This document shows, piece by piece, positions 4,881-58,012 of a stretch of DNA of 58,012 nucleotides (positions within the stretch are counted from its first letter, which is position 1; every line of letters starts with the position of its first letter). The position numbers were made by a program, and so were the translations under genes. Source of the stretch: Lentisphaerota bacterium (GTDB lineage: Bacteria > Verrucomicrobiota > Lentisphaeria > Victivallales > Victivallaceae); contig SUWK01000008.1 of NCBI GenBank assembly GCA_015061525.1, positions 1 to 58,012 on the forward strand, in the 5' to 3' direction. A model generated the notes under the pieces. The model was not told where the DNA came from, made no database searches, and saw only the letters and a program-made list of their open reading frames with translations.

Positions 4881-5624
4881 ATGAAAAAACTCTCTGATCA
4901 GAGAGTAAAGCTGTACAGCTTTACTCTTATTGAACTGCTCGTGGTCATCGCCATCATCGCGATCCTGGCGGCGATACTGCTGCCGGCATTGAACAGTGCC
5001 CGTGAACGCGGCCGTACCGCCAGCTGTATCAACAACCATAAACAGCTCGGTACCGGTATGATGATGTATGTGAATGACTGGGGATATTATGCCAGACGCG
5101 GTGCAGGCGGCGGTGACGGCTGGTTCTGGACTCATCTGATCGGTCCCTATGTCGGTGCAGCTCCGACTATAACCAATGGAGTTCCGGGATTTTCCAAAAC
5201 TGTGGAAATTCCGATTTTCCTCTGTCCCTCTGATGCTGCTCCCAAATGGACTATCGAAAGTCAGAAAAACCTTGCCGGTGCCGGAGGCTGCAGCTACGTT
5301 CTCAATGCCAATCTGGTTCAGACCGGAGGAACGATCAACGGTGTTATGTATGGTATGGCGGAAAGCAAGGTGAAAAATGCTTCGCAAAAATTTATGATCC
5401 TTGACGGTCCGGGGGACGCGGTAGTGGGAACTGCTGATGGACATGAACGTATTGCTTACCGTCACCCCGGCGCCGGCGTTATTCCGTCAGCCAGTCAGAC
5501 CAGCAATGCAGGTGTCGGTATCAACGTGACTTTCGCCGATGGTCATGCCGCCACCGAAAACCGTATCGTAACCAACAAGCTTGATACGACCATCACCGAT
5601 AAGCACTGGAGTGCTTCCAAATAA
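4881..5624 (+). CDS. Prepilin-leader pseudopilin, DGH C-terminal motif
   Basis: 247 residues; start chosen at the ATG preceded by GAAAGGTGTGATGTT rather than an in-frame upstream ATG at 4848. A short leader ends at [10 protein letters not shown], followed by one long hydrophobic helix and the conserved segment [13 protein letters not shown]. These are features of type II/IV pseudopilins processed by prepilin peptidase and anchored in the inner membrane. The C-terminal globular part ends with [11 protein letters not shown]. In relatives this is an H-X9-DG motif, but here the histidine is 24 residues before DG. First gene of a run with the GH28-like and DUF4838-type genes. Codons 4-16 form two adjacent palindromes (4890-4927). 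Confidence 0.9.
4890..4927. repeat. Two overlapping palindromes inside pseudopilin leader codons
   Basis: A 16-bp perfect palindrome (4890-4905, centre GATC) overlaps a 26-bp perfect palindrome (4902-4927) containing GTAAAGC...GCTTTAC. The second spans the codons for V-K through F-T of the prepilin cleavage region. The same arrangement recurs at 28788-28825 and partly at 38028-38047. Confidence 0.85.
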
Positions 5625-28773: not shown

Positions 28774-29535
28774 ATGAAAAAATCATCACTCCAACATGTT
28801 GGAGTAAAGCACACGTGCTTTACTCTCATCGAACTGCTCGTGGTCATTGCAATTATCGCCATTCTGGCGGCAATACTGCTCCCGGCTCTGAACTCCGCAC
28901 GTGAACGCGGCCGCGCCGCCAGCTGTGTGAGCAATCTCAAGCAGTGCGGTATGGCGCACAACAGTTATGCCCAGGATTATGATGATTACAGTTTGGCATA
29001 CAGTATCGATCCGCTTGCCGGTAAGCAGTCATATTGGACATATTATCTGGCTCCCTATCTGGGCGGTACGGTCGATCACTCGGCAAGAACTATTGATTGC
29101 GATACTCTTTTGTGTCCGTCATCGGCAGAGTTGAACAAGATCGGTTACGGTGTTCTGATCACCCGCCCGACTGATGATCATCAGCTGCATGGTGCAAGCA
29201 ATGTCAACGGTTTTTCGCGTACTATGGCGCAGAGATGCACCAAATACGTCAGGATCGCCAATCCCTCGCAAGCGGTTTCCATGATCGATGCCTCAACTAA
29301 ATTCAACAGTGTTTCCACAGAAAATCTGAACCTTGCTTACTGCTTTGCCTGTTTCGGTAAAACTCTTTACGGTAATAATGACTCTGACCCCGGTTCAAAT
29401 ATCGACCCGCGCCACAACGATGCGGCAATGACGCTTTACACCGACGGTCATGTCGGTTCACTTACCAGAACGCTTCTGGAAACCACCACTTCAGCAACGA
29501 ATGACTTTTTTGGACATTACGGCTTTGCTAAATAA
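28774..29535 (+). CDS. Prepilin-leader pseudopilin with H-X9-DG motif
   Basis: 253 residues, ribosome site AAAAAAAGGAAAAG. Leader to [11 protein letters not shown], hydrophobic helix and [25 protein letters not shown]. The C-terminal part carries [14 protein letters not shown], an exact H-X9-DG. Probably processed by prepilin peptidase and held in the inner membrane with a periplasmic head. Leader codons contain two adjacent palindromes (28788-28825) of the same layout as in the gene at 4881. It lies between the gene at 27365 and the giant enzyme at 29566. Confidence 0.9.
28788..28825. repeat. Two adjacent palindromes inside pseudopilin leader codons
   Basis: An 18-bp perfect palindrome (28788-28805, ACTCCAACATGTTGGAGT) overlaps a second inverted repeat (28802-28825) with 10-bp arms GAGTAAAGCA/TGCTTTACTC and loop CACG. 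The inner GTAAAGC/GCTTTAC arms are identical to those in the genes at 4881 and 37998. Confidence 0.85.
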
Positions 29536-37969: not shown

Positions 37970-37997
37970 ACAACAATAAAACAAAGGAGTGATAGTT

Positions 37998-39035
37998 ATG
38001 AAACAAAATGGTTGCCAAGTTGTCGAAGTAAAGCACATGAGCTTTACCATTATTGAACTGCTCGTAGGCACTGTTATCTCATCATGGCATTTTTTTACAC
38101 ACAAATCCACATGTGAGACAAAACAAAGAAGTCCGCTTTTCTTGAAAAGGGGAGTGGGGTTTGGGGAGAGGGGAAAAACCTCTTTTCCCGCCCGCTCGGC
38201 GGGTTGCGAAAAAACTCGCCCTTCCGTCTTCGTTTCACTACGCCGTGACGAGTCGCTTCGCTGGGGCTCGGATTTATCATCACAAAGAATTCCGCTTTTT
38301 TTGAAAGAGAAAGGGGGCGCGGGGGAAAGGGAAAACTTTTTTTCCCGTGAAAAAAAGTTTTCCTTGTCCCCCGCACACTCATTTACCTTGATCGAATTGC
38401 TGGTGGTTATTGCCATCATCGCCATTCTGGCGGCGATCCTGCTGCCGGCGTTGAACAGTGCCAGAGAGCGCGGCAGATCAGCAAGCTGTATCAACAATCT
38501 CAAGCAGCTTGGTTTGAACTCCATGTCGTATGTTACAGACAATGATGATTTTTTCCACGCTCCTATCGGTACGATGTTCAACAAACTTGACCGCCTTTAC
38601 TTCGGCGGTCCGGCGGCAGCAGCGGATGATTATTTGTTTTCCCCCATGTTCAGCTGTCCGAGCAATCCGGCACCGGAGGTTGAGGTGGCGAATTTCGGCA
38701 AGGCGCTTTATTACAAGCGCATAAGCTATCTTTTGAATAAGAACCTTTCCGGTCAGGCAGATGCTCCATTAAAATACACCCGGGTCTCCAAGCCTTCGTT
38801 CCTCGTCTATATTCTTGACCGCAGTATTGAGATGTGTACCCGCGCTTCCGGAACTGATACCAGCAACACTTACAGCTACAGTCAGACAGTGTGCGCTCCG
38901 GGAGTCCACAATAAGAATGTCAATATCCTCTTTCTTGACGGACATGTGGAAACTCATGCCGACAGCGATACCGAATTTATCGGTACCGGCGGAGTACCGC
39001 TGCGCCGCCGCTGGGATCCCAACTACAATCAGTAA
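37998..39035 (+). CDS. Pseudopilin with duplicated prepilin leader split by an in-frame repeat insert
   Basis: 345 residues, against 240-253 for complete paralogues. Start at the ATG behind AAAGGAGTGATAGTT. A first leader-like segment [12 protein letters not shown] (F16) is followed by about 110 residues rich in K, R, G and S ([14 protein letters not shown], then [27 protein letters not shown]), then a normal second leader [13 protein letters not shown] (F129), [17 protein letters not shown] and [14 protein letters not shown], an exact H-X9-DG. The distance between the two F-T codons is exactly 339 bp. The insert includes a segment 136/138 identical to the window end. If translated, which leader is processed is unknown; it may be a pseudogene or a recently disrupted gene. 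Confidence 0.8.
38028..38047. repeat. Palindrome inside pseudopilin leader codons
   Basis: 7-bp arms GTAAAGC/GCTTTAC around ACATGA, at the same codons (V-K to F-T) as the palindromes at 4902-4927 and 28802-28825. The upstream companion palindrome seen in the other two genes is degenerate here. Confidence 0.8.
38075..38376 (+). repeat. Repeat element inserted in pseudopilin coding sequence
   Basis: Sequence between the two leader segments. Bases 38111-38248 match 57875-58012 with two differences. The element contains two related sub-repeats (from ~38131 and ~38291, both reading PLFLK...GER), hairpins GGGAAAA/TTTTCCC (38171-38189) and CCCGC/GCGGG (38191-38203), and a near-perfect 56-base inverted repeat at 38319-38374. 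No transposase is encoded. Confidence 0.85.
38319..38374. repeat. Near-perfect 56-base inverted repeat ending the element
   Basis: Inner arms of 14 bp (38330-38343 with 38350-38363, loop CCCGTG) plus outer arms GCGGGGGA/TCCCCCGC (38319-38326 with 38367-38374). Nearly every base between is paired. It ends five bases before the second leader segment (SFTLIELL) resumes. Confidence 0.85.
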
Positions 39036-56142: not shown

Positions 56143-56166
56143 GCTTTCTTTCTCGCGAAAGAAAGC
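56143..56166. repeat. 10-bp perfect hairpin, second copy
   Basis: Identical to 294-317. Confidence 0.75.
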
Positions 56167-57786: not shown

Positions 57787-58012
57787 GTTATCAGCAAAGA
57801 AATCATTTTACCCGGATCGAATTGTTAGTAAGTTCTGTTATCCCATCATTGTATTTCTTTACACGCCAATCTGCATGTGAGACAAAACAAAGAATTCCGC
57901 TTTTCTTGAAAAAGGGAGTGGGGTTTGGGGAGAGGGGAAAAACCTCTTTTCCCGCCCGCTCGGCGGGTTGCGAAAAAACTCGCCCTTCCGTCTTCGTTTC
58001 ACTACGCCGTGA
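57783..58012 (+). CDS. Pseudopilin, 5' part, carrying the same in-frame repeat insert (cut by window end)
   Basis: 76 codons to the window edge, all open. Ribosome site AAAGGAGAAG. Leader-like H|FTRIELLVSSV is followed by [21 protein letters not shown] and then [20 protein letters not shown], matching residues after F16 of the pseudopilin at 37998 in the same frame. The nucleotide match is 136/138 over 57875-58012. Whether a second, intact leader follows cannot be seen. ATG overlaps the upstream regulator's stop. Confidence 0.75.
   Translation, partial: MSYQQRNHFTRIELLVSSVIPSLYFFTRQSACETKQRIPLFLKKGVGFGERGKTSFPARSAGCEKTRPSVFVSLRR

Follow-up and report, generated by a model that had tools for sequence, protein, structure and literature searches.

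A translated cassette between two prepilin leaders of a Lentisphaeria pseudopilin gene lies at the probable attachment site of a clade of large serine recombinases

The pseudopilin gene investigated here carries two prepilin leaders separated by an inserted unit, which we consider, with a probability of about 0.7, to be a small translated site-specific cassette located at the attB of large serine recombinases (LSRs) targeting the leader codons FTLIELL|GT. The gene is found on contig C13 of the draft genome of a gut bacterium of the Lentisphaeria (2.83 Mb, 122 contigs, 89.6% complete), and the whole stretch of DNA analysed, 58,012 nt in length, is referred to as the window. If correct, this reading explains why roughly half of a large pseudopilin family contains an in-frame repeat, as the leader would be the attachment site of an integrase clade, and this leader-targeting clade spans several families of the class. 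An initial annotation of the window had interpreted the insert as a frame-keeping repeat insertion that might act as a switch; the former part of that interpretation is supported while the latter is not, and neither a serine-recombinase attachment site nor the cassette-borne nature of the second leader had been seen.

Results and discussion

The window gene and its two leaders

The two leaders, FTIIELLV beginning at 38043 and FTLIELLV beginning at 38382, are separated by exactly 339 nt in one frame and without any stop codon, just as initially annotated (Table 1). The open reading frame extends from an ATG at 37998 to the stop codon at 39033–39035 and encodes 345 aa, with ORF calling preferring an upstream GTG at 37989. 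In Pfam, the host gene matched PF07963 (32.3 bits) and PF07596 (39.3 bits), both above cut-off and only at or after leader 2, with which the protein's sole strongly hydrophobic stretch also begins; the first leader has no H-domain behind it. The insert was described as low in hydrophobic residues, which agrees with its GRAVY value of −0.71 vs −0.07 for the protein from leader 2 on and with its 20 K+R and 10 D+E among 105 residues. The sub-repeats and hairpins reported earlier were likewise recovered, the former as two 54-nt stretches that are 76% alike and the latter as a hairpin at 38310–38383 with 35-nt arms (83% complementary), the core of which is the perfect 15+15 palindrome. Palindromes similar to the one reaching into the first leader also occur at the leaders of other pseudopilin genes. 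A serine precedes leader 2; the usual residue ahead of a prepilin cleavage site is glycine. The genome contains one Peptidase_A24 match, i.e. one prepilin peptidase gene.

Two lines of evidence concerning the single insert were dropped: 14% of 5000 first-order Markov resamples were as open as the insert itself, and the 13 weak Rfam matches all concerned microRNA families far below gathering scores and were regarded as chance hairpin matches.

Table 1. Features of the two-leader pseudopilin gene and of a further cassette locus in the window.
Feature	Position	Strand	Remark
Start codon with N-terminal pre-sequence, pseudopilin gene	37998..38042	+	translation, 15 residues
7+7 palindrome GTAAAGC-6-GCTTTAC	38028..38047	+	extends into first leader
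First leader FTIIELLV	38043..38066	+	read as the host gene's own left attachment-site half (B)
GT of first Val codon, left breakpoint of the cassette	38064..38065	+	same dinucleotide as the LSR-element crossover
Left arm of the type-B cassette	38066..38110	+	weak likeness to the attP half-site of an LSR
Inserted unit, 339 nt (113 codons)	38066..38404	+	comprises left arm, filler and the new leader as far as its GT
Sub-repeat copy 1	38123..38176	+
Sub-repeat copy 2	38282..38335	+	76% of copy 1, spacing 159
Perfect 15+15 palindrome	38330..38363	+	4-nt loop, within the cassette
Second leader FTLIELLV	38382..38405	+	cassette-borne, followed by H-domain
Pseudopilin from leader 2, stop codon included	38382..39035	+	N_methyl and DUF1559 matches
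Further first leader FTRIELLV, then type-B cassette	57807..58012	+	ended by contig end

A clade of large serine recombinases at pseudopilin leaders

Locus comparisons show that a clade of LSRs in this class, as predicted from sequence, integrates at the pseudopilin leader and splits pilin genes. In the genome under study, contig C18 carries a B-long cassette with its second leader, which is followed by an LSR gene instead of a pilin body. The C18 element is 6,026 bp long, has a GC content of 0.36 vs 0.41–0.44 in its flanks, and encodes the LSR together with a small resolvase and an SNase-like protein; two further ORFs match one phage family of unknown function. At the far end of the element the pilin body resumes, and the joined flanks constitute one open pilin frame of 371 aa. 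As the element sits directly behind the leader of the B cassette, the LSR appears to have integrated into a cassette-supplied leader. The arms of the element are inverted repeats around GT, read as attP half-sites; a short core shared by attL and attR together with inverted attP half-sites was thus found for C18, and a GT core was also present at the two G178 sites described below.

The C18 protein (588 aa) matched PF00239 (1.3e-9) and PF07508 (5.1e-10), both over the cut-off, as well as a PHROG integrase (2.6e-45), while the zinc ribbon PF13408 scored 15.1 bits, below its cut-off of 25.3. With Resolvase catalytic and Recombinase domains in one long protein, it qualifies as a predicted LSR. 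One scan of viral contigs with six peptide patterns gave no match, and a viral source of the LSR was not retained; 49 phage records matched the LSR, and the ten listed had 23–25% identity.

A search of 120 relatives (E ≤ 1e-20) identified 25 LSR loci in 17 genomes, and a split pseudopilin was present in 20 of the 25 loci fetched. Extending the search to 387 genomes of the phylum (E ≤ 1e-30) gave LSR matches in 14 genomes with five new loci, four of which again contained a split pseudopilin. Overall, the pseudopilin was split in 24 of 30 LSR-homologue loci, lying at most about 200 bp from the LSR 5' end in 21 of the 30 and with the pilin junction ~0.9–1.2 kb from the LSR in L267, L271 and L299; no pilin junction was seen in the remaining 6/30 (L261, L269, L273, L274, L280 and L297). 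As a control, 11 loci with other Recombinase-domain LSRs from nine other genomes of the genus were inspected, none of which had a pilin leader in the fetched locus, and such LSRs were dropped as potential drivers; the control loci were taken with 1,500 bases on each side of the domain match and thereby cover less beyond the gene ends than the clade loci do.

The clearest insertions were found in G178, a single-contig genome (5.7 Mb) from another family of the class, where two 100% identical LSR elements of 1,893 bp reside in two different pilin genes. Between the two sites, the host sequences on the left side are dissimilar as far as the base preceding GT, and those on the right side are dissimilar starting with the base that follows it. 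A similar LSR element of 1,838 bp was found at L264. In L275, L278 and L282 the first Val codon is replaced by ATC, and the crossover may lie one codon later in these loci. Within the genus, where cassettes are widespread, just one of 34 genomes yielded a leader-targeting LSR, for which reason most cassettes of the genus look like scars.

At two of the LSR loci (L263 and L271) the leader half and the body half of the split pilin are in opposite orientation, as if the segment between the att sites had been inverted.

Breakpoints and arms of the cassettes

The breakpoint of the type-B cassettes is the GT in the first Val codon behind FTLIELL, a position which coincides with the predicted crossover of the LSR clade. 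Mini-elements using the LSR attB would share its breakpoint, and this was the case for type B, with 21 of 21 left junctions at GT; type A was less clear. In the first leaders of type B in the genome under study, the base after GT was an A in 21/21, and the third base of the last Leu codon varied. At the right junctions (16 loci per type-B ending), the third-base entropy rose from 0.9–1.0 before GT to 1.6–1.9 after it. The left junctions of type A vary at the base after the first GT, and their breakpoint may lie one codon later.

The left arms of the cassettes were compared to the attP arms of the C18 element, using 20,000 random 45-mers of the window as background for the arm p values. The type A arm matched over 33 nt (88%, E 1.5e-7) and the type C arm over 22 nt (91%), the half-site p value for both being 5e-5 (the floor). 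The type-B arm in the window had p values of 0.007 and 0.03 against the two half-sites, a weak likeness, while the best B-type arms of relatives (L194, L199 and L160) reached 2e-4 or lower. A p value of ≤0.01 to a half-site was obtained for 11 of 25 distinct arms of the genome and 13 of 31 arms of relatives vs 0 of 81 H-domain controls, leaving 14/25 and 18/31 left arms, respectively, that did not reach 0.01; owing to relatedness among the arms, the counts lack independence. A right-hand attP half-site was absent from the cassettes, the right end of which is a leader copy, and the cassettes are for this reason not simple mini-elements.

These junctions also bear on the alternative that survives best, in which RecA-type homologous recombination or gene conversion acting on the conserved leader spreads the cassettes with no recombinase involved today. 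With at least 84 leader-bearing genes there would be ample homology, and such a process would sit well with the several codon haplotypes found in the right-hand leaders of type B, with the hybrid A–B cassettes of L061 and L063 (see below) and with 33 of 34 genomes of the genus in which no leader-targeting LSR was found. It would, however, be expected to carry donor codons into the first leader to a varying depth, whereas the varied first-leader codons persist right up to the GT in 21/21 type-B cases; moreover, the left arms resemble attP half-sites, and the GT of the cassettes is the GT of the LSR crossover. We therefore regard recombination on leader homology as an unlikely main route and retain site-specific integration as the preferred explanation.

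The cassette family and its distribution

PF07963 gave 86 matches in the genome, two of which were first leaders of already counted genes. The surroundings of the other 84 were taken, and 80 loci were counted, leaving out C77, two on C5 and one overlapping another locus. Counting only cassettes placed immediately before the leader next to the H-domain, 41 of the 80 pseudopilin loci contained one and 39 were plain. The 41 cassette loci comprised 16 for each of two type-B endings, six of type A and three of types C–E. Stacked cassettes were found at six of 79 loci, five with three leaders and one with four, and at nine more loci at contig ends a first leader is followed by an A or B cassette running off the contig. 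Because contig ends fall inside cassettes, the cassette counts are lower bounds and misjoins are possible.

When the window insert was used as query, 75 matches were listed in its own genome, some of which represent the reverse strand of its hairpin, and matches were found in 27 of 60 genomes searched as relatives (own genome included), where a few of the weakest, outside the genus, may correspond to the leader alone. Among the matches listed, the best 80 named loci were all from Lentisphaerae or Lentisphaeria metagenome-assembled genomes, and several of their record titles mention sheep colon or roe deer cecum. When two other pilins of the window served as queries, the orthologue searches mostly returned leader-region matches and were set aside.

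All cassette copies whose context was read sit at a pilin leader; of the first-look candidates, 40 of 82 and 40 of 76 were scored, and copies outside pilin genes may additionally exist. This distribution is relevant to the idea that the cassettes are selfish palindromic elements like those of Rickettsia (RPEs), inserted more or less at random and observed only where they are in frame and tolerated. The cassette does contain hairpins and palindromes, and its peptide is in frame, translated and neutral (see below), but insertion into unrelated genes of the RPE kind was not encountered among the context-read copies: all of these lie in genes of the pseudopilin family, where they share a single codon position and terminate in a copy of the leader. 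We consider random insertion very improbable.

Two hybrid cassettes were noted (L061 and L063), in which a type A left part is joined in frame to a type B right part with no leader between them. At L055 and L088, a repeated stretch immediately preceding the leader contains runs of N; these may mark tandem copies of a palindromic N-terminal unit on which the assembly failed.

Reading frame, selection and empty sites

The initial annotation raised the question whether inserts in other pseudopilins are always multiples of three, and nearly all of them are: 37 of 38 leader-to-leader intervals in the genome were multiples of three (36/37 when restricted to informative ones, as the interval of L088 contains Ns) and all 38 were open, while 39 of 39 distinct intervals from relatives were both in frame and open, most of the loci behind the latter figure coming from a protein-pattern search. 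Out-of-frame copies at a similar frequency, which the initial annotation had named as grounds against its reading, were not seen, as only one of the 38 complete intervals is shifted. This exception, L071, has one extra C, and the same C is carried by L070, which is ended by its contig end. Copies are related by descent, so the intervals are not independent events; even so, the family-wide count is strong evidence, whereas the openness of a single insert is weak.

No selection on the inserted peptide was found, the substitutions being neutral in the three sets tested. For type A (10 copies), 5 synonymous and 16 non-synonymous distinct substitutions were observed vs 5.0 and 15.1 expected. The corresponding values were 11 and 28 vs 10.2 and 28.2 for B183 (17 copies), and 40 and 97 vs 35.4 and 97.9 for B180 (17 copies), the latter set containing 1 stop vs 4.7 expected. 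Neutral substitutions in combination with open, in-frame intervals indicate that the frame is kept and the peptide is not.

A syntenic orthologue without interruption was found in the sister species G028, with flanks ~78% identical, providing the comparison with an uninterrupted orthologue that had been suggested as a check and supporting the proposal that a repeat element was inserted directly behind the first leader. A second pair consists of L113, an empty site in the genome under study, and L157, the filled site in a sheep-colon relative. An interpretation of this pair as a conversion tract downstream of leader 2 was dropped, the whole downstream part being only ~75% identical.

The phase or processing switch suggested earlier left no trace in these data, and no purifying selection on the inserted peptide was seen. 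Seen more broadly, a functional switch or a selected N-terminal domain could account for a frame kept in 37 of 38 intervals, and the genome does possess a site-specific recombinase of a kind able to excise; yet synonymous and non-synonymous changes in the tested sets are at neutral expectation and the sister orthologue does without the insert, which makes a selected function about as improbable as random insertion. An assembly artefact is the least credible explanation of all, for despite the 122-contig draft with several contig ends inside cassettes and a relative locus (L165, compared to L073) that could be a misjoin, the cassette architecture recurs in separately assembled relatives and inside long contigs, and LSR insertions occur twice in the single-contig genome G178.

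The locus just mentioned was kept out of the evidence: L165 and L073 are 99.5% identical over ~1 kb upstream up to the leader and diverge thereafter, one continuing as a plain pilin and the other with a cassette, after which both the pilin body and the next gene are different ones, a divergence that could stem from a rearrangement at the site or from an assembly misjoin. Furthermore, L150, an orthologue of the L106 locus, shares its ATG and first codons and then continues with B-type cassette sequence, with no recognisable first leader ahead of it.

Proposed mechanism

In our best reading, the cassettes are site-specific scars or mini-cassettes that regenerate the leader. Each would have the form [attP half-site + filler + leader], and insertion would convert leader|H-domain into leader|cassette-leader|H-domain, providing the gene with a fresh, intact leader. 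The renewed leader would leave the site open to more insertion, as in the stacks and in the LSR element found behind a cassette. As the two junctions occupy an identical codon position within one and the same motif, the frame would be preserved, and later internal indels and stops would be removed only insofar as they block translation into the pilin body. The cassettes might descend from LSR elements whose right half was lost and which were joined to the leader of another pilin, and they might move through an LSR acting in trans, or by excision and reintegration. Being located ahead of the predicted prepilin cleavage site, the inserted peptide may be tolerated and may leave with the pre-peptide.

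A more far-reaching version, which we put forward as a tentative proposal with somewhat worse than even odds, is a self-renewing translated cassette system that lands at the prepilin leader codon, regenerates both gene and attB through its own leader and hides in the pre-peptide. The cell would possibly cut off this pre-peptide, so that dozens of paralogues could carry stacks at little cost.

LSRs with a naturally amplified target would thereby become available, and the cassettes may be an example of mobile DNA that is tolerated through translation ahead of a presumed cleavage site. They also represent many natural insertion scars in which the healing of intragenic integration sites can be studied. 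For annotation, a word of warning is warranted, as the first leaders and long N-termini of these pseudopilin genes can be insertion scars.

Comparison with known systems

The residues LVEML encoded at the attB of the pneumococcal prophage PPH100 presumably belong to the leader of ComGC. Prophages in comGC thus provide a precedent for integration at a prepilin leader: a pneumococcal serine integrase (Int2b / PPH100) is reported to insert in comGC after nucleotide 58 and before nucleotide 59 (unpublished data of the authors cited in PMC7600539), and the PPH100 attB as listed in PMC8637289 reads LVEML on the other strand, as translated here. The likeness consists in a serine integrase acting inside a pseudopilin gene (PMC7600539). 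In the pneumococcal case, one target gene is disrupted by a whole prophage, whereas in Lentisphaeria a large paralogous family is targeted, the elements can be little more than an LSR gene, and half of the counted loci contain translated, leader-regenerating cassettes.

Multi-targeting LSRs that use many genome sites and a dinucleotide core have been described (Durrant et al. 2022, PMC10083194), and DNA competence genes are enriched among their targets. Those enzymes reach many sites through relaxed specificity, while the many sites of the Lentisphaeria LSRs represent one coding motif of paralogues; the terms pilin, pilus and Lentisphaer do not occur in the text of that paper (PMC10083194). 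RPEs are likewise small in-frame repeats that are translated within coding genes, but they occupy unrelated genes (PMC10969869), unlike the Lentisphaeria cassettes with their single codon of one gene family, their leader-copy end and their stacking. No published account of LSRs at pseudopilin genes or in Lentisphaerota was found in the open-licence library searched; a Legionella secretion paper and a Mesorhizobium ICE paper among the hits seemed unrelated, judging by their listing.

Further palindromes and repeats

In many pseudopilin genes, perfect palindromes straddle the start of the leader and follow the gene's own synonymous Phe-Thr codon choices. Stems of ≥7 were found in 19 of 79 genes; shuffling the upstream sequence lowered this number to a mean of 0.4, and swapping leaders between genes to a mean of 8.6 (max 14). 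Such palindromes were located in the window at 4902–4927 and 28802–28825 and at loci L046, L049, L052, L055, L080, L083 and L092, as well as at L093, L098, L099, L103, L104 and L108. The window has five long palindromes, two of which straddle a leader start. In addition, the 24-nt palindrome GCTTTCTTTCTCGCGAAAGAAAGC occurs twice, at 294–317 and 56143–56166, near both ends of the window; each copy is followed by similar GGAG-rich sequence, and the pair perhaps represents another dispersed repeat.
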